From assembly GCA_963920635.1 (NCBI GenBank), contig OY987298.1:2666001-2730000 (forward strand): a stretch of 64,000 bases of DNA, written 5' to 3'. The position numbers were made by a program, and so were the translations under genes. The notes under the pieces were generated by a model, which did no database searches, was not told the origin of the DNA, and worked only from the letters and a program-made list of their open reading frames with translations. The stretch is from Pseudeuparius sepicola (lineage: Eukaryota; Arthropoda; Insecta; Coleoptera; Anthribidae). Shown piece after piece: positions 1 through 52,944 of this stretch (its first letter is position 1; every line of letters begins with the position of its first letter).

Positions 1-1651
1 TCATTTTAAATACACTTTACCCTATACTTTATTTTTATTATTTATTTAGAATACATTATGACAGGAAGGAGGTGTGCTGTTTATGGTTGTAATATAACTT
101 ACGCTTTAAAAAAAGCAGGCGAAAATATTATGTTCCATACCTTCCCCAAGTCAAAAGATATGGTTTCACAAACGATTAGGAGAGCATGGGTGGCAAGATG
201 TAAAAGAATGGACAGTTTCAACCGAGGTTTCAACCCTAACAACAGTCATATTTGTTCTCGTCATTTTACGGAAAATAACTATGAAAGAGATTTACAGAGT
301 GAACTGCTAGGTACCTAAAAGAGTTTAACCTTTCCATCTTCATCCAAAGCTTTTTTAACTACAGATTAAATCTGGCAAGAAGAGTAGTTGAAAATGCATT
401 TGGCATTTTAGCCAAACGATTTAGAGTTTTTGACTAAAATTAATTTGAATGTGGAAAAAGTGCAAACCATAACATTGGCATGTTGCACATTACATAATTT
501 TTGAGACCCGAATGTCCTACTTCCATCCTAGAAGAGCTTGATAAAGACTATATATTTCAATTTGGACTTTCTTACCAAACATGCTCACCAAGACATGCTT
601 GCGTTGCTGCCCAAGAGGAGTTTTGTGATTATTTCGTGAATGAGGGAGCTGTGCCTTGGCAGCGGAATACATGAATAAAACATATTGTAACATTTCACAC
701 ACTTTTTATCTAAGTATATTATCTCTAAAGCTATGTACTCTCCTCTTTCTCGTCTAATGCCTCAAACAAAACTAGTATCAAAATATAACCTTCCTTGTGT
801 TCAAATTTTCAATGTTAGTACCTACTCCTGAAGATCACGCAAAACTTGACGGAAAATAGGACATGCTCTAATTCGTGAAGTAACTTCATGAAGAAATTCA
901 TGAATTAATTCATGAAGAAATTGCCAGTGTAATACACGACTTTTTATAATAATTTGCCCTTGAAGTGACTTCATGAATTAATTCATGAAGAAATTGTCAA
1001 TATAAAACAAGCATCACAGAGTGTGTACCAGTACAGGTGCAATAAAACCAAATGTCAAGTCCTATAAGCGCCTTTTATCGAACCTTTTGTGAAACATAAT
1101 TTTCATAGTGTTTATTAAGAGTATTATAGTCGTAATAAATTGAAACTAAAATTTGGCATACATTATTTTTAATATTAATTTATAAAATAATATCGCAAAA
1201 GATTAGTATCATACTTACCGTCTTTCAAACGTTCAAAATACTTTGTATAATAATAATATTTTATATTTGCCTCAGCCAGAGGCCTCGGCAACTAAATTCC
1301 ACATGAGTCGTAAAAAGTTGAACTTCAGTGCCTTGGTAGGTACATAAATAACTATTTTCGAATTTTTCTTCAGTATGCAATTATTCCATATATTGGCAAT
1401 TTTATAAATTAATCCCTTAGCCTTGATACATTCTAAGTAAAAAATAAAAGTTCTCTGTACTCTTAATAGTGTATAAAAATCAAAGGATTGGCAAAAGTAG
1501 CTCAAAAACACAGAACATCCACAGAAAACCCACCCTTTCTATATTTTGAACGGTAGCTCCCGGCGCGCTTAGCAGATAGCAGTCTAGCGGTGACGTCACG
1601 CCGGCGGAGAGATTTGCCCGATCGAGCAATCCTGTGCGTCTACCGTTCTTG
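1..1651 (+). mobile_element. THAP/Harbinger-like DNA transposon, copy 1 (left end outside window)
   Basis: Nearly identical over its whole length to the element at 25029-26925, with small indels. By comparison with that copy about 300 bp of the left end lies outside the window. The right terminus is seen: the inverted-repeat end CTACCGTTCTTG finishes at 1651. It contains the remnants of a THAP domain and of a Harbinger-type transposase C-terminus (see 58-674). It also contains part of a small palindromic repeat (about 1270-1345) found free at 40030-40145. The presumed target duplication next to the right end cannot be checked because the left flank is missing. Confidence 0.85.
58..674 (+). 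pseudogene. THAP domain plus Harbinger-type transposase C-terminus, internally deleted
   Basis: The first ORF (58-318) is an N-terminal THAP zinc finger of the C2CH type. It has CAVYGC near the start, an FHTFPK block, a central Trp (RRAWVARC) and the closing CSRHF. It stops soon after. From about 355, in other frames, comes [18 protein letters not shown], then a frame change, then CCTLHNF. A final stretch ends EGAVPWQ before the stop at 674. These are typical of the C-terminal part of PIF/Harbinger (DDE_4) transposases. The catalytic core between the two parts is gone, so no active transposase can be made. The family assignment rests on motif recognition. Confidence 0.8.
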
Positions 1652-4406: not shown

Positions 4407-5308
4407 ATATAAAACAACCAGCAGTATAACTTACTCTTGAGAAATCATCCGCAAATTCAATGACCTTGAGCCATATTGGGGGAATAGAAGTCAGAGGTGT
4501 AGTCGGGAAAATCAATTCAGAAATACAGAGTAGTATTAGTAAAGTATAATAGTGTGTGGTAAGCACAAGCAGCTTTGACTCCTTCCTGGGATTATTTATT
4601 TAAAGATACTAGCACAAAGCACAATTTACAAAAAACCCACTCCACGGCACTGTAATATCTCTCATATAGCCAAAAAAGAACTGCCCAATCGCCCCGACAC
4701 TGCATCCATTTGACAGAATCTATTCCCAAATGGCGGCTGCGCGAACAGGTGCGCAGAATTTTCCCGCCATGGGGAGTTATACTGCTGGTTGTTTTATATG
4801 ATCTGGTTGTATAGCATAAAATCTAATAACAATAACATTTCACCTGGCATAAATTTAGTACAAACATTTCTGTCTTCATTTTAATCATAAGATCTGAGAA
4901 GAATATGCACTGGAATTATTATTTTCCCCAAGATTTTCATAACCTATGAAACAAAACACTGCTTATAAGATCTTATGATTCAAATTAAGACAAAAATGTT
5001 TGTTCTAAATTTTTGCCAGGTAAAATGTCTTAAGATTTTATGCTATACAACTTAAAAAAATACGAAATCTAACCTCACTTCTCTGTTGGCAACCCCCTCT
5101 TTACTTTTTATTTAAGATGAACAAATTGCGGAAAAAGAAATTTAAAACTTAAGTTTCTCAAAACGACACAGACCAATAATTAAAAAAAAATCTTTCTGTA
5201 TCGATATTTAACAGCCGATATTTAGTGATATCGATAGAAAAAATTCGATACAGTATCGATTCAGAATATCGATATAATTTTTAAAAAGGCCCATCACTAA
5301 GTCAAACC

Positions 5309-5339
5309 CAAGAACGTTAAACCAGACTTAAGGTTCTTG
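5309..5339. mobile_element. 31-bp remnant of the THAP/Harbinger-like family
   Basis: It consists of CAAGAACG, a short middle, and GTTCTTG: the terminal bases of the family at 25029-26925 with the interior missing. The flanks AGTCAAACC (5300-5308) and GGTCAAACC (5340-5348) match at 8 of 9 bases. The mismatching base is also the first base of the hAT target duplication, so the hAT at 1687 was inserted into this flank. Confidence 0.6.
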
Positions 5340-5348
5340 GGTCAAACC

Positions 5349-12548: not shown

Positions 12549-14093
12549 CGAGCCCTGTCTCAGTTAAGTTGGACCAAACTAATAAAAATATGTTTTTTTT
12601 GACGAAATTTATCGCGTTAACAGAAAATTTATTAAAATCAACACATTTTTCTAATTATATAGGAAACGTTTATTCACTTTTGGCATATAATTAAACTATA
12701 TTTTAAGTAACAAAGATTTTTTTTAAAGAAATTCCTAATATTGACAATAAACAGAAAATTAAATAGAAAATTACCACTGCATTACATCGCCTTTTCGACT
12801 TATTACTGCCACGATACGTCTCAACAGTGTTAACTAATGTTTAGCAATCAGCTGGAGTGAAACTATTCCAAATTTCTTGAAGACGAGCACGCAACTTAAT
12901 GTTTCAATCGGCGAAAGATCCCGACTGCTAGCCGTCCATTTTAAATGCGAAATATTGTTTTTAACATCCAAACTTTCACTTTTTTAGCCATATGGCAAGA
13001 GGCGCCATCTTATTGGAAGATACAATCGATATTTTGCAAACGCAATTTTTCAATTTTTAGTTTCAAATTATTTTGAAGGACGTTAATGTATTTCTCAGCG
13101 ATCATGATGCCATCTACAAAGTGTAATTTTCCAACCCCTCTAGCTGACATGGATCCCCAAATCATCACGAAGGACGGAAACTTAACTTTCTTCTTAAGGC
13201 AGTCCGTGTGATACACTTCTCCTTTAGTTCTAATGACTCGGCTTTGAGTATCACCAACACAAACTTCAAATCTAGCCTCATCACTCCATATAATTGAGTT
13301 CCATTGATGCTGAGACCAAGCTCCGTGCTCTTCTGCCTACAAAAGCCTATTTTTCTTCTGCCTCTTTGTTAGTAAAGCCTTTTCCTTTGCCTACAGATTG
13401 TAAAATTGAAAACTGGAAAAAATCCGAAACAGTTTGGGCTTACTTTGTACGTTTTAAACCCTAGTTTTCGGGCACCTTATTCCATAAAACTCTCAATTTA
13501 CCATAATTAGCCTGACGATTTTGCACCATAATCCTTCTCAGAGCCCTTAAATTTGTATTAGAATAATGCGGCCGACTTCCATTTCTCTGCTTCTGAGCAG
13601 CGGATCCAGTAGTTTTGTAAAGTTTAATAATATTTTGCACTGTATATCGTGATAAATTAACAATTAACGGCAGACTTGCCTTTTGAATGCAAGTGAAATA
13701 TAACATTCCTTATTTCTTCAGAAACAGCTTTACCACGAGACATTTTTATTTGTCAACAACAATGAATGCACAAGTATGTTGTGAAATGTTACCAACGCCT
13801 TGTTTAAACCATCGAATTGATAAGTACAATGTCAATTCAATGGTTTAAACTTATTGAAATGTCAAATATTGTGATTTATTTCAGAGCCGCCTACTAAACT
13901 TGTAGAAACAGACTATCTAACTTAAGCTGTTTTCGTCATGTATTTTGTTACAATCAAATTATTATACAAAACAGCCAGCTTAAATATTCTCTAAAACCTG
14001 TAAGGAAATAAAAAAAGAGCACATTTTCAAAAACGTCTGCTTCGACATGCTATAAATTCATAAATTTGATATTGAGAACTGAGACAGGGCTTG
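12549..14093 (-). mobile_element. Tc1-type DNA transposon, 1545 bp
   Basis: The ends are CGAGCCCTGTCTCAGTT (from 12549) and its inverted partner finishing at 14093 (read inward CAAGCCCTGTCTCAGTT). The element is flanked by TA (12547-12548 and 14094-14095), the standard Tc1/mariner target duplication. The length and the single minus-strand transposase gene fit the Tc1 group. Confidence 0.85.
12780..13743 (-). pseudogene. Tc1-type transposase, degraded
   Basis: The start codon is at 13743 (MSRGKAVSEE). After a frameshift, an N-terminal helix-turn-helix part follows at 13461-13700 (SRYTVQNIIKLYKTTGSAA and RRIMVQNRQANYGKLR). The DDE part reads FPSFVMIWGSMSARG and ends near 13010. Further frameshifted remains of the typical WPASSRDLSPIE motif lie near 12900. 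Several stops and frameshifts make it non-functional. It shows no sign of domestication. Confidence 0.8.
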
Positions 14094-17800: not shown

Positions 17801-20800
17801 GTGTCAGGTTGTGCTGAAGAAAGGATCATCTCCTGCAACGTTTGATGAACATGACTTTAGCAAGAAAGAACCATTATTAAATATGTATAAATTTGTGAGA
17901 ACTTGTACTAGTTTGATATTTTTCCTATTTACTTGCAATATATCTTTGAAAACAAAAATACTGTTGTCTTCTTTATTGAAATGTAGATGATCTCTCTTGC
18001 ATTAAAAATTTATTAACTTTTATTTTACAAAAAAAAAAGAATGAGAGACTAATATATCGATATTACATACCTAGGTACTATTTTTTTTATTCAGCCTAAT
18101 TCCTATTATTAGTGGTTGATTCATATTACCAAAACAAACTTTCCAACTTTTTGTTATGTACAAATTTTAGTATTAATTGTCTTAAAATTATGATGGTACG
18201 AATAAGAAGAGAGTTTGAAGAAACGAAACCATACCATAAAACCATTTGAAAGACCTTTTTTATTTTTAAATAAAAGTAATAAAAATTATTATTGCAGCTA
18301 CGATTCCTATTGAAATATTCGAAAGTTTGGTTAGTTGGTATGCTAGAGCCTTGTTTAATTTTATGTACATACCTATCTACATTACCTACCACCCTCCTAC
18401 AAAAATTTAATAAATGTTTTTATCCTGATATCCTAAAATTGCTGTTTTTTTGGAACAAATTATATGTTTCTTCACTTTTCCATTCAAACTTCAATAATTA
18501 TTATTAGTGAAGCATTGCAACTAACATACTACCATTGATTAAGGTATTCCTTATTCAATGATACTACACTACCTAACCTATTTACCTATTTATTGGTTTT
18601 ATCTATATTTTTATACATTTTAAACTGTGCCCTCATCTACCTACGCTTATGGCAGTTAACTGTCGTTAGCTTAACCTTAAAATCACATTTTGATACATCA
18701 TGCTGCTAGGGGAATGCTAGAAAGAGCGAAAAAATATATGTCTGTTGCACAAAATGAATTTCATAGGGAAAATAAGACCCTCGCCAGAGAGAGAGATCCG
18801 ATCGTTGTCCAACCTCTGTTAAAACGAATAACTGTCACTTTTTGTGTCATACAGGGCCTCTACCTTGCACTTGCATATTATATTAATTAATTTTCTTTCT
18901 TTGATATTTTCAGCTAGGAATAGGATATCGAGATACGGTTTTCACTAGCCTATTTAGGTATCATTTCACTACGTTTTTATAAAAAAAGTAATATTATTGC
19001 ATTTAATTTTTTCGAGAATTTTGCAATTTTCTGTTATTATATCAAAAAACGCGATCTAGCGGCATCACTGAGACTTGGCCATATCACGGGTAAGATGGGT
19101 TTGATGGACCAATAACTGCGTTTTCCAACGAGACCAAGTTTGTTAAAATCCGTTCAGTCAGAGTAACAGCTGTTTATTTAAAAAAACATCGAATCACTCC
19201 CCACCACTTTTTTAATAGATATGTCAAAAAGTGTTAAACAAAAATTACTCGAATAAAGCTTACCTTTAAAAAGCATATATTATTTTGGTAACATTACTAG
19301 GTGGATTTCAGTGAAAAATCACTTTAAAATGAAGTGACAGATTTAAAAGTTTAAGATGGCGGTTACGCCCCCTGGTGACTATCTTGGAAATCTGAAAATA
19401 ATTTCCAGGTTTTTCTCTTGGCCACTTTATTCTAAAAAATTTTTACCGCAAGTCTCTACGACGAATAGTTTCCGAGATACAGCACTTTGCATTCTTATCT
19501 GACCACCCTGTACACATCATAAATAAATTATAACATCGCAACAATTTCTCTATAAATTTTATAATGATAAGAAGAGTTGAATCATTTTTTCTGTCGTCAA
19601 ACCACAAGTAGTTAAACGAGATAAAGAAGTTTGAGATTGTCTTGACAAAAGCGCAACATTATAAAAGAAAATAAATATATTTAGATTGGCTCACCGTGAA
19701 GGTCCTTGGGCTTCAAATGCAAATGATTCAAAGTGTGCAAAACATGATCCCAATTCTGTACCACAAACATTTCCATCTGATCGAAAATCAACAATTCGAC
19801 CGAAGCGAGAAAATCAAAATCCCTCTCGTCTTCTCCTTCGGCACCTATGATCGTCCTCAGGCCTAAAGGCGATGCTATTATTATGTCCGACGAGTAAAAA
19901 TCTGCATATAACTATGACAAAAGTTGAAAAACAGGATGATTCCACAAAACTTCAAGAACATTTTTCAATATTCTACCAATTCTAGAAGTTTATCCATTTA
20001 AAATTATATTTTTTTACCTTTATACTTTTCTTGGTGACCGATATCCCCATTTTAAAATCATCGGCGGTATTCCCCGTAAAAGTCTGTTCATAATCGTCAG
20101 GTTTGGGATTTTTCTTAGGCAAATATAGTTCGTTTCCAGTGTAGTCTTCTTGGAACCTATTCCTATTTATCACATTTCCTTTGTCCTCTGGTAAGATTAT
20201 GTTAACGATCGTTTGAACTATTTTATATGCAGAGTCTTTGAAAGGAACTACCATCAATATCTGTAGAAAAACCATTTTCAATGTTAAATCGTTGAAAATG
20301 AAAATTTACCCAAGTCCCAAGTACTTAGTTCATTCTCAAATTAGATTGGGCAAATTACGCAAAAAGGTATTTGATCGTTTTTAGAAGTAACTTGATGCTA
20401 TTTATTTATTTAAATTTATTTATTTATTTAAATTATATCCTCAGCAATCAGTAGATTATTACAAGGAATTAGACTAAATACTATTTTTCCAGAAATAATT
20501 TTTTAACTTCATTTTAAATCTAGTGGTACCTATTTATTACAATCTTGATTTCTTTATTATATAACAAAACATCATCATAGAGAATCGATTTTTTCCCAAA
20601 ACTACATTTAAATTTTTGAATCTGAAAATTCTATTTTATCTTGAAATTTTGGTATAATCTCTTTGAAAAGAATATTTTTCTTTTAACATAATTGAATTAA
20701 TCAAAATGGATACTTTTTATATACCAACTCTGAACGAATGTGTACACCTTTTTCGCATAAAAACTTCAGAGCAAATAGTCATTTGTCAGGAAAAATAATA

Positions 20801-21983: not shown

Positions 21984-22189
21984 ATTCTACGCTTTATGTT
22001 TGCAATTTATTTCAGAAATATGAAAGATGACTTATTACTAGTTTTAAAGTTTAAAGATAATTTATTTTCTACATCACAACAGAGCTCAGAAAAATACACA
22101 GCATGTTAATTTCAGATTTGAGGTTTGAGGTTATGTTGTGATAAGGACGAAGTTAGCAACAAAAGATTAGGCAAATTGTGAGGCCAACC

Positions 22190-22217
22190 CAAGAACGGTA
22201 GACGCACACCGTTCTTG
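22190..22217. mobile_element. 28-bp remnant of the THAP/Harbinger-like family between UTP25 and SVOP
   Basis: It begins CAAGAACGGTAGACGCAC and ends ACCGTTCTTG, which are the two termini of the family at 25029-26925 joined without an interior. It is flanked by a perfect 9-bp duplication AGGCCAACC (22181-22189 and 22218-22226). It lies about 210 bp upstream of the UTP25 start codon and 320 bp upstream of the SVOP start codon, in their shared promoter interval. Confidence 0.8.
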
Positions 22218-22536
22218 AGGCCAACCAACCAGTTATACTGGACAAAAAAATTCACAAGAAACAACTTTTTTTCTGTGTCTGCATCATAATATGTAATTTA
22301 GTAACAATACTGCGATTTCGTAATTATTATTGACTTAAAGACGTTGATTCCATCGACGCTTAAAGACCATTTGAATTCTCGTAGGTAGTAGCTAAGACCA
22401 AATTCGGGCTGTCGAAGAAGTAGCAAAGTTTGTGACGTACGTCACCTGTTGAGTGAGGTTATGCGCACCATCCACGTAAACAAAACTGGAATATTTACCT
22501 TAAAAATTACCGTTTAAAGTTAAACAACCCCACGAA

Positions 22537-25500
22537 ATGGTTCTGAGGCGCTCCAAAGGTTACCAAGACATCGAGGGCAATTCTCCGGGCCAAAATTCGG
22601 CTAGAAATGAGCTGCCAGACCCTGACATTTCCGCTGTTCCCCAGGAGATCGAAATGGCTTCGGTTTCAGTCGTTCCTGACGGTGAAAATTATAGAATGTT
22701 GTATGAAAAGTCAGTGGGAATATTTTCGAATGTTTTTTTGCAGATACTTTTACGGTGACGCAAGCCGTGAACGCACTCGGATTCGGATGGTTCCAAGTCA
22801 AACTGTCTTTGTGGACGGGGCTCTGTTGGATGGCCGACAGTATGGAGATGACGATTTTGTCGATATTGTCACCAGCGTTGCATTGTGACTGGCAAATCAC
22901 GAGGTATGCACGTAAATCGGGAAAAATTTTGGGTACCTATAAAATAAACAAATTTTAGATACCAGCAAGCATTAACTACGACAATAGTGTTCCTCGGAAT
23001 GATGCTCTCGTCGACTTTCTGGGGAAATTTAAGTGATAGATATGGAAGAAAGCATGTAACTAATGTATAAAATTTGGTCGATTTCTTTAAAAAATATATT
23101 ATTTTTTAGGCATTATCGTTATGCGCTGTATTACTATTTTATTATGGGTTGCTTAGCGCGCTAGCGCCAAGCTTTATGTGGATACTGTTACTGAGAGGTT
23201 TAGTAGGGTTCGCTATAGGTTGTACCCCGCAATCGTAAGTATAAAATTTTATTTTTTTTGCTTTTGCATGTGATTTAGATTTTTTTATTTTTTCTGTCAT
23301 GGCAAGACAACACTAGTGTGATATCTTGAGGGTGATAAGGTTTTATCGTTGACTGACTGCTCACGGCTGTCATGTTTGACAGTTCTCTGGCTCACCATGC
23401 GCTTCCCGGAGACAAAATACAATGCAAAATACATTGTTGATCATAGGCGCCATCTACTTTTCAGAATATGAAGCTGTAGCCGTGAGAAGTCTTATTAATA
23501 CGTCAGTCAACGGTTTTATTCTGAGAGACTTTAACATTTATTGTGCAATTTTAAACTGCCAAAGCAGTCAGTTTTCCTAGAAATGATGTCAATGCTGTCC
23601 AATTTCAGTCTTTTTTTAACCAACTTCAAAAAAGGAGGAGGTCATTAATTCGGTTGTATGTTTTTTTGTTAACCTCAGAACTCCGTCATTTATAAACCGA
23701 TTTGGACAATCCCTTTTTTATTTGAAAGGGTATACCTACAGAATGGTCCCATTTAAATTAGAAGAAAAAATTCCACCCCTAAGGGGGGGGCAAATAGGGA
23801 TGAAATTTCATATTGAACCGATTTCGATGATTCTTTTTTTATTAGAAAGGGAGTACCTTAGAGGTGGTCCCATTTTAATTTGGAGAAAAAATTCCACCCC
23901 TAAGGGTGAAAAAATAGGGGATGAAATTTCATATTGGACCAATTTCGATGATTCTCTTTTCATTAGAAAGGGATTACTTTAGGAGTGGCCCCATTTAAAT
24001 TTGAAGAAAAAATTCCACCCGTAAGGGTACAAAATAGGGGATGAAATTTCATATTGGACCGATTTCGATGATTCTTTCTATATTGGGGTACCTTAGGTGT
24101 GGTCCCATTTAAATTTAAAGAAAAAATTACACTCCTAAGGGTAGATAAATAGGGGATGAAGGTATATTGGACCGATTTGGATGATTCTTATTTTATTAGA
24201 AAGGGGTTATCTTAGGGTTGGTCACATTTAAATTTGAAGAGAAAAATTCCAATCCTAAGGGTGGACAAATAGGGGATGGAATTTAATATTGGACCGATTT
24301 CGATAATTCTTAATAATTGACTAAAAAATAAGAAAAAAAATTAACAAAAAAATTAAAACCGACTTTAAAAATTAAAAAAAAAATAAAAAATAACATCGAC
24401 TTCACAAATTTGCCTGTATGCACGTTTCAACGAAAATTTTAGAAATATTTTTCTCTTTCTAAATTGAGTTATCTATCATATATCCCGATTACCTACTGTA
24501 GGAAGTCACGATTTTGTCAGATGACATTCTCCACAAAATCTCTAAGAATTTTCTGTTAACAATGGGTATAACATTGATATATGTGTCTCAACCAGTTAAT
24601 GACGTAACTCATTGATTTATGATGTGAAAAGTTACCCAAGTGATACGAAAAAAAGAACATAATAAAATAAAAACCCTATTGCAATCACGATTATACCGCT
24701 ATAAATAAAAATAACTATTACTACAACTCATTTTAATAATAATTTAAAACATCATGAAAACACTTTCATTTTAGTATTTTGGTATAATCAGCTACTTGCG
24801 GCTGCGTCTATGGTGCATACTCAGGCAAATTCTATTTCGGTGTTGTGACAGTGACAGTGAAAGTTTTTCGGTTCATTCAAAAAGGTTCAAACTTTGGCCA
24901 GTGAAAATATTTGCGGCTTTTGTACGTTTCATGTGTTTTACCTTTATCTGTGTTGTTCTTGTTCATGTTATTAGTAGTTATTCATTGTGCAAATGGGCTC
25001 ATTACTGACCTGGACTTATGACCCGGTTCAAGAATGGTCGACGCACAGGATTGCTCGATCTCGTAAGCGTAATGTTCGCCAGTCGGCAGATGGGTGTGAC
25101 GTCAGCGCTAGACTAACGGTGTTATTTGTACATCAGCGGTGCAGGTTTTGACGCGGGTTTTGACTGTGTTTTCTTTATTTTATGTAACCTGTTTTTAGTT
25201 TTCAATCTATTATTGAATATTTATACTAAATTAGTACCATCTTGCATAGTATTAAAAACGTAAGAACTAAATATATTTTGTCAAATTATCTCTCTAATAT
25301 CGAATGTTTTGTGCCATTATAGGTACTTATATTTTATCATTTTAAATACACTTTACCCTATACTTTATTTTTATTATTTATTTAGAATACATTATGACAG
25401 GAACGAGGTGTGCTGTTTATGGTTGTAATACAACTTATGCTTTAAAAAAAGCAGGCGAAAATATTATGTTCCATACCTTCCCCAAGTCAAAAGATATGGT

Positions 25501-28500
25501 TTCACAAACGATTAGGAGAGCATGGGTGGCAAGATGTAAAAGAATGGACAGTTTCAACCCTAACAACAGTCATATTTGTTCTCGTCATTTTACGGAAAAT
25601 GACTATGAAAGAGATTTACAGAGTGAACTGCTAGGTAAAAGAGTTTAACCTTTCCATCTTCATCCAAAGCTTCTTTAACTACAGATTAAATCTGGCAAGA
25701 AGAGTAGTTGAAAATGCATTTGGCATTTTAGCCAAACGATTTAGAGTTTTTTGACTAAAATTAATTTGAATGTGGAAAAAGTGCAAACCGTAACATTGGC
25801 ATGTTGCACATTACATAATTTTTGAGACCCGAATGTCCTACTTCCAACCTAGAAGAGCTTGATAAAGACTATATATTTCAATTTGGACTTTCTTACCAAA
25901 CATGCTCACCAAGACATGCTTGCGTTGCTGCCCAAGAGGAGTTTTGTGATTATTTCGTGAATGAGGGAGCTGTGCCTTGGCAGCGGAGTACATAAATAAA
26001 ACATATTGTAACATTTCACACACTTTTTATCTAAGTATATTATCTTTAAAACTATGTACTCTCCTCTTTCTCGTCTAATGCCTCAAACAAAACTAGTATC
26101 AAAATATAACCTTCCTTGTGTTCAAATTTTCAATGTTAGTACTCCTGAAGTTCATGCAAAACTTGACGGAAAATAGGACATTAATTCATGAAGAAATTGC
26201 CAGTGTAATACACGTCTTTTTATAATAATGTGCCCTTGAAGTGACTTCATGAATTAATTCATGAAGAAATTGTCAATGTAAAACAGGCATCACAGAGTGT
26301 GTACCAGTACAGGTGCAATAAAACTAAATGTCAAGTCCTATAAACGCCTTTTATCGAACCTTTTGTGAAACATAATTTTCATAGTGTTTAATAAGAGTAT
26401 TATACTCGTAATAAATTGAAACTAAAATTTGGCATACATTATTTTTAATATTAATTTATAAAATAATATCGCAAAAGATTAGTATCATACTTAATTACCA
26501 TCTTTCAAACGTTCAAAATACTTTGTATAATAATAATATTTTATATTTGCCTCAGCCAGAGGCCTCGGCAACTAAATTCCACATGAGTCATAAAAAATTG
26601 AACTTCAGTGCCTTGGTACATAAATAACTATTTTCGAAATTTTCTTCTATGCAATTATTCCATATATTGGCAATTTTATAAATTAATCCCTTAGTCTTGA
26701 TACATTCTAAGTAAAAAATAAAAGTTCTCTGTACTCTTAATAGTGTATAAAAATCAAAGGATTGGCAAAAGTAGCTCAAAAACACAGAACATCCACAGAA
26801 AGCCCACCCTTTCTATATTTCAAACGGTAGCTCCCGGCGCGCTTAGCAGATAGCAGTCTAGCGGTGACGTCATGCCAGCGGAGAGATTTGCCCGATCGAG
26901 CAATCCTGTGCGTCTACCGTTCTTGGACCCGGTTGCATTTTTTTCTGCATTGATGCCAACTTAGGATGGCGAAATTACCAGTTGACAGTCCCAGTAAGGA
27001 AGGAAATACTTCTAAAATCTTAGTTGAAATGTGCATACGGGCAAATTTGTGAAGTCGGTGTTATTTTTGGTTATATATTTTTTTAAATTTTTAGTGGAGT
27101 GTGTATACGGGCAAATTTTTGAAGTCGGTTTTAATTTTTTTGTTAATTTTTCTTTGTTTTATAATACGACATTGTAACATTCATCATTGCATACTGTGTA
27201 CTAAATATCCTTTGAATATTTTTAACAGCTGGAAACATTTTTGAATATTTAAGCATAATGTATTTCGAAAATGATGCCGCTCTGGTAAAAAGTTGTATCA
27301 CAAAATAGTCATACCCTTTGTTGAGGTCTCCTGGAATAAAGTGAATCTCTATGTGGTAGGATGATCTAGCACTAGTGTGGTCTCTATAGCACCAATTTTG
27401 TTTGTAGTGTGACACTGTATGCTGAATTTTTACCAACGAAGCAAAGGGCGAAATGTGTCGTGTTGCTTGATGTAAGTTTTATGTTTTTTTTTGGGGTATT
27501 CATTGTAGACAAATAAAAAAAAGCAAAATATAACATTTAGGATTTAAGTAAAAGTCGTAGTTACCGCTGTCATGTTGACAACTTGACAGTCACGAACTCG
27601 TCTATCAATCTCCGAACAATGTGATATTTTGGACTTTTTTCATTGCTGGCATGTTGCGAGTTTCGTGTCATTTCGTTCGATTTTGCAGTGTTTTTGGGCG
27701 TTGGGTGCATGCTTTGAGGTCGCGTTAGCACTTATAGTGATGCCGACGTTAGGTTGGCACTGGCTGCTGGCGTTGTCCACGGGGCCACTACTGGCGTTTG
27801 CCTTGGTTTGCCCGGTAAGTCAAAATTTTCGACAGGGAAAACAGAATTTATTTTTTTCTCTATACTGTTGCCACTTTTTTAACAAATTACTATACCCCCC
27901 TTCAAGTTTGTCTTATTGTCTTTGAACTAATGCTCTCTATAAACTACATGTACTCTGGTTCCCAAGTAACATTTAAAGTTTCATAAAAAAACTTGAAGAC
28001 GTTGTTGCGACCAATAATACAACTTGTCTATAGGCATATCGTCCTTTTTGGAAACAGGTTTTCATGACTTTTCATACAACTTTTATCTGACTTAATTGGA
28101 TATGATATTTATAAGTCCATTAGGTCGTGTAAATTCAAAGATACCTTAATGTCATAAAGAAGTGGCTCTAAAGTTGTGAAGATCTCTATTAAGACCTTCA
28201 TATTACCAATTAGTCATAAATATGGAACGTATAGTGTTATACCAACAATCCAATATGACTAAATACAATGGTCTGATTTAATTTGACATAATGCGAAATC
28301 ATATTGTGCAGTGTTTGCTTGTAATACGAAGACATTTAATTCTGTCTCAGCCGTAAGTGGTAAAAACGAAATTATACGTTGGTGATATTATGCAATATAG
28401 CATCTCGGTTTTTGACGATTGTACTCAACGGAATCTATTGCGAATTTTTATTTACTGCGAAAATTAGAAATTTTGAACGTGCTTTAAATTAAAATTTAAA

Positions 28501-45899: not shown

Positions 45900-48800
45900 A
45901 TGAGCTTTATGTTGCTTTTAAAATTCCTAATCCTACACAACAGTGTTTGGTGTCTTTATATTTTTTGTTTTTCTACAGGATGATCACATTTTCAACTTTC
46001 CTCTCTTATAGTTCTCGAAGTGCTTTCGATCCAAATCAACTATGTCAAGGTGCCAAACGCAGTCCAAAACAACTCTAACAAACCAGCCATATTAGACTGT
46101 GACTATTCTGTACGTCCTGACGACGTGGACTTGGTAGTAAAATGGTTTTTAAACGGCGAGGTGGTCTACCAATGGATACCGCCTCAGAAACCTCAAAGCA
46201 TGGGCTTACTCAAGGCAGATAACAAATGTTTTTACTTCCGGTCATCCCGGAAGTGAAACTGCTCCGGTAAACCCGGAAGTGGGATTACTTCCGGTCAAGC
46301 CGGAAGTTAACTTTTCATTTCCGGAAGTGAACTTTTTCATATTTTTCAGGGTAGAGTAGATTTGGACTACAAAGCGACCGATGATCCGACAACTGTGTAC
46401 AGATCAATGAAAATCAATAATCCTACAAATGATATTGAAGGGGAATATAAATGTTTTGTGTCCACATTTGCGAACGAAGATTCTTCTACAAAGAATATGA
46501 TCGTTTTCGGTAAACTGTTAAATTGTTAATCGAAAACAAATTACAGGATATTTTTTTAGAACCGGAAAATAAGTTCTACATTTTGAAAAACGAGTCCAAC
46601 GGAATAGTCAATTTTACTTGTTTTGCTATAGAATTGTACCCTGAACCAAAGTTAGCGCTGTACAATGAAATCGATGGGGATTTTTATCATAAGTAAGATA
46701 TTAAAAAATCAACCCTGACTTTTTGGAAAACGATCTTTCATTTTTTAGGAACAGGATACCAACGGTAGAGTGGGATATTAAAAAGTTGCCAACCGAAAGG
46801 TTTTCGATGTTCATAGTGGCTTCGATAGATCAAGAAAAGTTAGAACCTGGGACATTAATACATTGTGAACTTAGAATTCCTGGCACGGGATATGTGAAAA
46901 TAAAGAGCTTGCTCTTTTATCCTGATGGTAAGAAGATTAGAAATATTTTTTAGTGAAACACATCGACAAAAATCAAAATCGTTTATTTGCTAAATATACA
47001 ATAAAGTAAAACAGTAGATTCATGTTCATATATATAATGTTAAAGGTCTAATCATACCAAATAAATTTTTTTATGCAGTAGGTACGTTCCTAATTATTTA
47101 TTTTTTATTTTCTCTACAAATGTCCTCTGACCTTTAACTTTTTAACCATTTAAAAAACCGTTTCATTTGACCTTCCTACTATTTTCAAAATGCAAGATTC
47201 AAATCTGACACCACAGCGTTAATCAGGACACCCCAAAACCTCCATATACTAAAGTTGAACAAAAAATATGCAGGGAGTTTCATTCTACAAGTTGTCAAAG
47301 TTGAGCAAGATAGGAATTTCAAAGGCATCTGGCGAGTCAAGTACCTATGCCATGGAATACCCTCAAAACAGTTGAATGGTCAACAGCACCATTCAAAGTG
47401 TTGCTGAGCAAAGGATTCAATACAATCATATACTCAAATTATTTTAAGAAGTCCTTACTGGGACTGTCAATTGGTAATTTCGATATCCTAAGTTGGCACC
47501 AATGCAGCAAAAACTGCAACCGGGTCATAAGTTCAGGTCAGTAACTAGCCCATTTGCACTAATAACACGAAAAGTAACACGAACAAGAACAACACAGATG
47601 ACGGTAAAACTCACGAAACGTAGAAAACCCGCGAATATTTTCATTGCCGAATGTTTGAACCAGTTTGAACGATCTGAAAAACCTTCACTGTCACTTTGAC
47701 AGACCGAAGCTAAATTTGCCTGAGTCCGGCCATAGACGCTGCCAAAAGCAGCTGATTATTACAAAATACCAAAATGAAAAGTGTTTCCATGACGTTTGAA
47801 ATTATTATTAAAATGAGTTGTAGTCATAGTTATTGTTATTTACAGCGGTATAATCGTGATTGCAATGGGGTTTTTATTTTATTTTGCTCTTTTTTTCGTA
47901 TCACTTGGGTAACTTTTCACATCATAAATCAATGAGTGACGTCATTAACTGGTTGAGACACATACCAATGTTATACCCATGGTTAACAGAAAATTCCTGG
48001 GGATTTTGTGGAAAATGTCATCTGACAAAATCGGGACTTCTTACAGTAATCGGGGTATATACAGGGTATTTTTCTGTGGGTCATCTTTTAATATGATGAA
48101 TTTTATAAAACTTTATATGGGTCAAGAGCGTTCTAGAATTATTGAAAAAAAATATTAATAAACACAAAAGTAATTTATTTATTTACAAAATGCCTACCAA
48201 CAAAAAAAAAATTTTGGATCTCCCCCAACAAAGTTACTGTCTAAGATTATACATTTTCTGTTACCTTTCCTGTTGTGGCACACCATATAGCCACAACTGG
48301 AGCTACTGACTGGCAGGCTTATGTATTTATTATTATTTATTTCGTTTATATAGTGTCTATGGCAGTTTTTATATCTACATTTATGACCATTATAAAGTTC
48401 CAAAAAATTCAGTACCTTGAGATGCCACAGAGAAAAACACCTTGTATATCTTGTAATGGATCTTTGCACACCAACACTTTAATGGCCCTGTTGACCATGC
48501 AACTGTTCTGAAGGGATTCCATGGCACACTTGACTCGTCAGATGCCTTTAAAATTCCTGATTTTTTGTTAAACTGTGACAACCTAAAATCTTAAATAAAA
48601 CAATCTCTAAATGGTTTTCGGGGGTTTAAAATTGTCGTAGCCGGCCCTGGATTTGATTTTTAAAAATGTCAAAAAAGTTTAAGATTATCTCCAAAAATAA
48701 AGATTTTATTTATTTGTAGATGTAGGTTTAAAAGTAGACACCCTGAATATTTTTATATACAGAGTGTCTCACTTAAGAGTGATACAATTTAACTTCTTTA

Positions 48801-52445: not shown

Positions 52446-52944
52446 TTCCACTTCACCAGAGAATACGAGCCTCAAGAATGCGAGTAAAAAATTTCGAATG
52501 TTGCCAAACTTCCAAATATAATTCTCTTTAGGAAATATAATAAACCAAAGCCATGACGCTAGTGCACCAGAATTGTACAGGTTTTTTTGCGATCCGGCAA
52601 CGCCTAGCAAGCCCAGTAAAGATTCATCCTGCAATCAGTTTTCCAAGCTGAATATTTCTTAGAGCGACTGGCGGTCGTAGATATTACGACGCCTGTGGCG
52701 GCAGCAATTTTATGGCCTATTCCCGCGTTTTTTATTTTACTTCCCCTCTGCGTCTCTAGCTTTCTCTCCTATGTTTTACTATAAGTGGCGTCATACCAGA
52801 GAACAATTATTGTTCTCTGGTCATACTAAATCCAATATAGCGGATGTCCCAAGATGGTGGACTAAATTTCTTTACCACCCTCCTGATATGGGAATCAAAT
52901 AAGTAGGTACTAAAAACACAAAATAAAATAAAAGGTAAAAAAAC

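Follow-up and report, generated by a model that had tools for sequence, protein, structure and literature searches.

A non-autonomous P-superfamily transposon family of Pseudeuparius sepicola with 9-bp target site duplications and an apparent 18-nt donor cut

As far as the available text of the sources cited here goes, transposons of the P superfamily are described with target site duplications of 7 or 8 bp. The P element of Drosophila melanogaster has an 8-bp target spacing and its 5' cuts lie 17 nt inside the ends (PMC7776569), and 8-bp duplications are recorded for P and zebrafish Pdre2 (PMC7776569, PMC10983969), for the P elements of Anopheles gambiae (PMC1562414) and for Izanagi, a non-autonomous P element of medaka (PMC2820524). 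Galileo, which has long ends, makes 7-bp duplications with the consensus GTANTAC, and rarely 8-bp ones (three D. willistoni copies) (PMC4168063). PIF/Harbinger elements make 3-bp duplications (PMC9179366) and Harbinger-type relatives 2–3 bp, possibly 5 bp for NuwaII (PMC4482050). Here, we describe a transposon, designated element A, in a 64,000-nt stretch of the genome of the beetle Pseudeuparius sepicola (contig OY987298.1), referred to in full as the window; the element names A and B and the locus labels (L0xx) are those of this analysis. A is assigned to the P superfamily on the basis of its THAP exon, its ends, its duplications and the scars that it appears to leave. It is most probably (probability of about 0.92) an internally deleted member that is moved in trans by a P-type transposase, with joins to the target 9 bp apart and a donor cut 18 nt inside the ends.

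Comparison of ends, a survey of copies and a P-type relative delimit A as a non-autonomous element of 1,897 bp (25029..26925, plus strand). By inspection, its left terminal inverted repeat (25029..25060, plus strand) is CAAGAATGGTCGACGCACAGGATTGCTCGATC and its right one (26894..26925), read on the minus strand, is CAAGAACGGTAGACGCACAGGATTGCTCGATC; the repeats are 32 bp long with 2 mismatches and start with CAAGAA. The original prediction for this locus was of an exact 9-bp duplication, and GACCCGGTT is indeed found on both sides (25020..25028 and 26926..26934, both plus strand). It was equally right about the empty copy of the host repeat near 47445-48060 (minus strand), which aligns with 85 % identity through the insertion point and holds a single, unduplicated GACCCGGTT at 47518..47526 (minus strand). 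Further in, the motif TGACGTCA, a candidate transposase-binding site, occurs near the left end (25097..25104, offset 68) and again near the right end (26865..26872). An ORF (open reading frame) of 84 aa with a stop (25394..25648, plus strand; Pfam THAP, E=2.8e-13), starting at position 366 of A, represents THAP exon 1 of a P-type transposase, and by eye the exon would end at 25634, before a GT donor at 25635-25636 (AG/GTAAAA). A second long copy has its right part in the window (1..1651, plus strand) and its left end outside it (G000:C1:2665697). The non-autonomous A copies keep only this THAP exon and splice donor, and in this they resemble truncated P repressor proteins.

The family is large. 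The end pattern CAAGAACGGTNGACGCACAGGATTGCTC matched the 769-Mb genome 225 times in forward and 238 times in reverse orientation and its reversed control 0 times; the A-type end sequence may also be given as CAAGAACGG. A DNA search, in which the best 40 of 2,177 candidates were scored, provided 40 long copies, the window copy among them. When ends were paired for the best fit, with no more than 2 mismatches allowed in the terminal 10 bases, an exact 9-bp duplication was found in 30 of the 40, a match at 8 of 9 positions in two, a duplication of exactly 8 bp in one and none in seven (three without one end and four with both ends). The duplicated 9-mers vary between insertion sites. Further copies chosen for odd length (L079, L090, L092 and L093/L094) also have exact 9-bp duplications, while that of L091 is not exact. 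Within the window, exact 9-bp matches beside an inverted repeat (at least 10 of 12 bases) occur at three places, including 22190 and 25029, and at none in five shuffled windows, so that they exceed what chance would give. The 9-bp duplication at A insertions is therefore real, as was the staggered insertion originally predicted, and the genome-wide survey gave 9 bp rather than 2–3 bp with variable extra bases.

Mean pairwise difference among 34 near-full-length copies is 2.0 % (gaps ignored), which indicates a recent burst. Hence, the uninterrupted THAP frame in 23 of the 40 copies is uninformative on selection. Neither of two oversized loci was an autonomous copy: L079 (4,465 bp) owes its size to other sequence added to a long A copy, with a longest open frame of 162 aa, and L093/L094 (10.2 kb) is an A element split by a large insertion, with a longest open frame of 110 aa.

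The class assignment draws on a full-length relative. When the A THAP exon alone was used in a database search, one of 115 candidates was returned, a Dryococelus australis protein with a P-type RNase H domain. A genome search with that protein (best 112 of 1,256 candidates scored) found several places at which THAP pieces lie next to P RNase H pieces, and one of these, on contig C11, is a 5,086-bp element related to A (L098+L097+L095+L096). Its ends (CAAGAATAGTAGACAGGTAGGATTG...) are CAAGAATAGTAGACAGGTAGGATTGATAGATC and CAAGAATAGTAGACAGATAGGATTGCCAGATC, its terminal inverted repeats by eye are 32 bp with 3 mismatches, and it is flanked by an exact 9-bp duplication, GTGCACGTT. The THAP exon, which starts at position 457 (366 in A), shares 65 % identity with that of A over 82 aa (E=8e-37) and by eye has an AG/GTAAGT donor at the matching place. 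TGACGTCA lies at offset 67 in the relative and 68 in A, and both have a second copy near the right end. The end pattern of the relative matched the genome five times at three loci, including a second copy (5.2 kb, contig C2) that has THAP and RNase H pieces and an exact 9-bp duplication, GCGTTTGGG.

The relative combines a THAP domain with a P-type RNase H domain, of which the window copy of A keeps only the THAP exon. The catalytic exon of the relative (529 aa) matched PF21787, PF12017, PF12596 and PF21789, and at E <= 0.01 only P-transposase families. It matched the Drosophila P transposase structure 6p5a with E=7.8e-69, and the segments DEMKV and SD and the E of the ENFF/EHFF segment, which we take to supply the catalytic D, D and E of P transposase, align between the two. 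Repeats of about 31 bp that start with CA, a feature of the P class and of fly P itself, are present in both A and the relative. The P terminal consensus 5'-YARNG (PMC2820524) is a soft motif from which CAAGA in A and the relative departs, while CAAGG at the terminus of a further locus, L087, fits it. PF21787 had at least 150 matches in the genome (among the best 150 of 1,302 candidates), many alike in score and frame length, and the genome looks rich in P elements. Homologous proteins came from beetle, aphid, psyllid, ant, mosquito, cockroach, stick insect and spider, and one P-type transposase (P0051) is labelled Spiroplasma ixodetis, perhaps through host contamination or misbinning.

Evidence on the donor cut comes from very short pieces, two of which had been put forward as further members of the family. 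The piece at 22190-22217 does have perfect 9-bp duplications on both sides, but at 28 bp it is too short for a member; it consists of 18 nt of one end and 10 nt of the other between two copies of AGGCCAACC (22181..22226 in all) and is one of 142 places in the genome that fit an excision scar. The piece at 5309-5339 has the 8-of-9 match claimed for it (5300..5348 with its flanking 9-mers), but at 31 bp it too falls short of a member and is a candidate scar from a related family with CAAGAACGTT ends. The 142 places, the window's included, were found with the pattern CAAGAACGGT-N(0-30)-ACCGTTCTTG, which spans up to 50 bp in all and starts with the first bases of an A end (terminal repeat, 32 bp); the reversed control gave one.

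Among the 50 scars listed, the longer retained end was 18 nt (or 19 nt with one ambiguous base) in 30 and shorter in 20, and in none of the 50 was it longer. Lengths of 28 bp (17/50) and 30 bp (13/50) recur, and 13 of the 50 are 28-bp pieces with 18–19 nt plus 10 nt. The longest two are of 36 bp, one being 18 + 18 nt with one changed base and the other containing filler. Eighteen scars were fetched in the order of the list, skipping that of the window and one that lies close to another; an exact 9-bp duplication flanked 13, one had exactly 8 bp and four had none. Since the retained ends stop at 18 nt and a cut inside the end is published for P, the scars are read as products of P-type excision, with a donor cut that seems to lie 18 nt inside the ends.

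The alternative that fares best is that the pieces of 20–36 bp are not scars but tiny transposed elements, which would account for the full 9-bp duplications around most of those sampled and for the few recurring length classes. We consider this improbable. The listed pieces reach no further than 18 nt into either end and therefore lack the subterminal motifs, they vary in junction, in filler and in an overlap of 1–2 nt, and they are consistent with P donor cleavage as published, 17 nt inside the end (PMC7776569). Recurrent classes would also be expected if two identical overhangs were joined at micro-overlaps.

A second alternative concerns what lies behind the THAP exon. The original prediction was of a THAP-bearing Harbinger element of a distinct lineage, with a PIF/Harbinger-type (DDE_4) transposase and a 9-bp target stagger, and both the THAP finger and a DDE_4-like C-terminus are present, the latter directly behind the THAP ORF in the fetched copies; THAP-plus-DDE transposases are, moreover, described for ISL2EU (PMC4482050). 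The Harbinger part, however, is foreign to A. It belongs to a 5'-truncated, decayed PIF/Harbinger element, B (25646..26289, plus strand; left edge approximate), that starts at about the stop of the THAP ORF and runs through the DDE_4 C-terminus to the B right end, ...GTAAAACAGGCA, at approximately 26289. The C-terminus is decayed, lies in more than one frame and resembles, by comparison with those loci, the C-terminus of the PF13359 loci of the genome. A genome search with it (best 150 of 2,042 candidates scored) led to six fetched loci, in five of which (L081-L084 and L086) the B stretch has no adjoining A sequence; the sixth, L085, is an A copy. Both B ends are visible in L081 and L083 (AGCCTGTTTTACATTG.../...CAATGTAAAACAGGC, with small differences) and by eye are flanked by TTA, as in ordinary PIF/Harbinger elements. 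The B piece has no match in the 5,086-bp full-length relative, the ends of which are homologous to those of A, and L090 and L091, two copies bounded by A-type ends, have no match to THAP or to B.

The DDE_4 piece is thus, on these comparisons, a truncated intruder and not the transposase of A, and a Harbinger assignment for A is very improbable. The 3-bp TWA duplication of PIF/Harbinger is represented by TTA at element B in L081 and L083 and is not found at A, and neither is the 2-bp AT duplication of ISL2EU, a group also marked by a second ORF with a YqaJ exonuclease domain; the duplications of A are 9 bp. Spy reportedly makes no target duplication. The PF13359 loci offered no autonomous Harbinger partner, as no A-type end was present in 30 that were fetched, and the three closest to the C-terminal piece (L024, L025 and L030) end in unrelated sequence, showed no 9-bp duplication when scanned and were rejected as relatives of A. 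What stood of the distinct lineage is that the duplication length departs from the norm of the lineage to which A belongs; that lineage is the P superfamily, described with 7–8 bp in the sources cited here and, as far as these go, not a superfamily already known for 9 bp.

Further down, one may suppose that a P-superfamily element in truth makes the published 8 bp and that the ninth base is a flanking base preferred by the ends. In 16 of 30 copies the duplication has C as its last base, beside the left end, and exactly 8 bp was found in one of 40 copies and one of 18 scars. Yet the 9-mers, which differ in sequence, match at all nine positions in 30 of 40 copies, the one empty site examined has all nine bases once, and two copies of the full-length relative also have 9 bp, such that we give this idea hardly any credence. 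A Mutator-like origin, which is suggested by duplication length alone (9 bp is typical there, as for maize Mu, and foldback elements with 8–10-bp duplications such as Tetris were assigned to Mutator on that basis, PMC4079207), is as good as eliminated by the match of the THAP exon, ends and subterminal motifs of A to an element with a P-type transposase, by the catalytic exon of that relative, which at E <= 0.01 matches only P-transposase families, and by the listed scars, in which end sequence of up to 18 nt is retained.

Several points weigh against the interpretation of A as a P element moved in trans with a 9-bp, 18-nt geometry. Published duplications of the P class measure 8 bp (P, Anopheles P, Pdre2 and Izanagi) or 7 bp (Galileo), and instead of 7–8 bp we find 9 bp in 30 of 40 A copies and in two copies of the relative. 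Ten of the 40 A copies are without an exact 9-bp duplication, and the count of 30 depends on the best pairing of ends; a stricter first pass with a single fixed end model gives 27. An exact 9-bp duplication is similarly missing from five of the 18 sampled scars (exactly 8 bp in one of the five), and only 50 of the 142 scars were listed, with a pattern that required 10 exact bases at both ends. The candidates of the THAP-exon database search were limited by length, and other THAP carriers were possibly missed. The left ends of the relative and the A family agree at 19 of 25 positions; with 65 % identity in THAP, this makes the relative a sister family and not a proven mobiliser of A. Transposition in the P superfamily is GTP-dependent; PF21788, the GTP-binding domain, gave no hit in the exon of the relative, though it is reported in a homologue, P0057 (68 % identical). 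Finally, no element with ends identical to those of A was found to carry an intact transposase gene.

With these points taken into account, internal deletion of a P element followed by movement in trans still describes A best. A keeps the two ends, the subterminal TGACGTCA and the THAP exon up to its splice donor and lacks the catalytic exons, the truncated Harbinger element B occupying the place where they would follow. Mobilisation is probably by a P-type transposase supplied in trans. This enzyme would join both ends to target positions 9 bp apart, giving the 9-bp duplications that are seen. In excision, to judge from scar anatomy, its cuts would fall at the 3' ends of the element and, on the 5' side, 18 nt inside the ends. 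End sequence would then remain as 18-nt 3' overhangs, and repair that shortens and joins these would produce scars in which neither end contributes more than 18 nt. In the listed and fetched sample, the scars mostly lie between two 9-bp duplications.

The interior between the ends can differ. In L090, about 0.9 kb of different sequence (~312-1190), foldback-like by eye, lies between A-type ends, which may perhaps be able to move unrelated cargo.

A second lineage with 9 bp is represented by L087, in which an open frame of 851 aa contains THAP, PF21787 and PF21788. Its ends, CAAGGCCTACTATAAAGACAGGCCA, are identical over the 25 bases shown and flank an exact 9-bp duplication, ATAGATCAC, in the one copy available. 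L087 is not the direct parent of A, as its ends are unlike those of A beyond CAAG and it is separated from L095 of the full-length relative by a 100/100 split. In a 36-row tree, L087 and L095 lie across this split, with fly P (8 bp) and Anopheles placed on the same side as L095. The row for fly P is incomplete (40 % filled) and has a long branch, the tree is drawn with an arbitrary root, and Anopheles is represented by species other than the A. gambiae of the 8-bp paper. If the L087 duplication holds, 9 bp would either have arisen twice or predate 8 bp. Because 9-bp spacing occurs in two widely separated branches (L095 and L087), one structural register may set both cut distances, and we raise, as a tentative idea about which we remain more doubtful than confident, that the geometry of P-type transposases can move by one base pair in target joining and donor cutting together (9 versus 8 bp and 18 versus 17 nt). 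A link between the two one-base shifts may exist.

The window also holds pieces that look like scars of other families. At 13810-13842, a 33-bp piece (CATCGAATTGATAAGTA/CAATGTCAATTCAATG, approximately 17 nt retained) lies between perfect copies of the palindromic 8-mer GTTTAAAC and has the appearance of a scar from a different P family, one that makes 8-bp duplications. Inverted-repeat pieces at 18533-18560 (28 bp) and 52797-52819 (23 bp), between perfect 7-bp copies of ATACTAC and GTCATAC, respectively, resemble what Galileo-type P elements, with their 7-bp duplications, would leave as scars.

The length of the duplication serves to assign transposons to superfamilies, and here it would suggest Mutator, while the stray fragment would suggest Harbinger; the evidence places A with P. 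With A, the P superfamily gains a third length beside 7 and 8 bp. No P-superfamily element with 9-bp duplications was recognised in the literature covered; Repbase and most subscription journals lie beyond that scope and an earlier record is possible. The large natural scar set would map the donor cut at single-base resolution and, as the structure of the fly enzyme is solved, what sets cut spacing becomes testable with two related enzymes that differ by one base.

Among known systems, A is most readily compared to the D. melanogaster P element. Both have a transposase that begins with THAP, a P-type RNase H exon (in A's case, in the relative), and terminal inverted repeats of similar length (31 bp in P and 32 bp in A). 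The P donor cut lies well inside the end, and to judge from the scars that of A probably does too. They differ in that P has 8 bp and 17 nt (PMC7776569) and the A family 9 bp and, as the scars indicate, 18 nt, so that each distance seems to be one above that of the textbook fly element. The A. gambiae P elements and their P-MITEs (miniature inverted-repeat derivatives) likewise have P-type ends with multi-copy non-autonomous derivatives and differ in their 8-bp duplications (PMC1562414). Izanagi, like A, has no transposase gene, retains recognisable THAP-encoding exons and was placed with P by THAP and an end motif, and it too differs in its 8-bp duplications (PMC2820524). Galileo is a P-superfamily member with a THAP transposase and, like A, a duplication that is usually not 8 bp, but its duplications are 7 bp and its ends long (PMC4168063). 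PIF/Harbinger-type elements are the group to which the lodged fragment B belongs, and from which A, with its 9 bp, stands apart.

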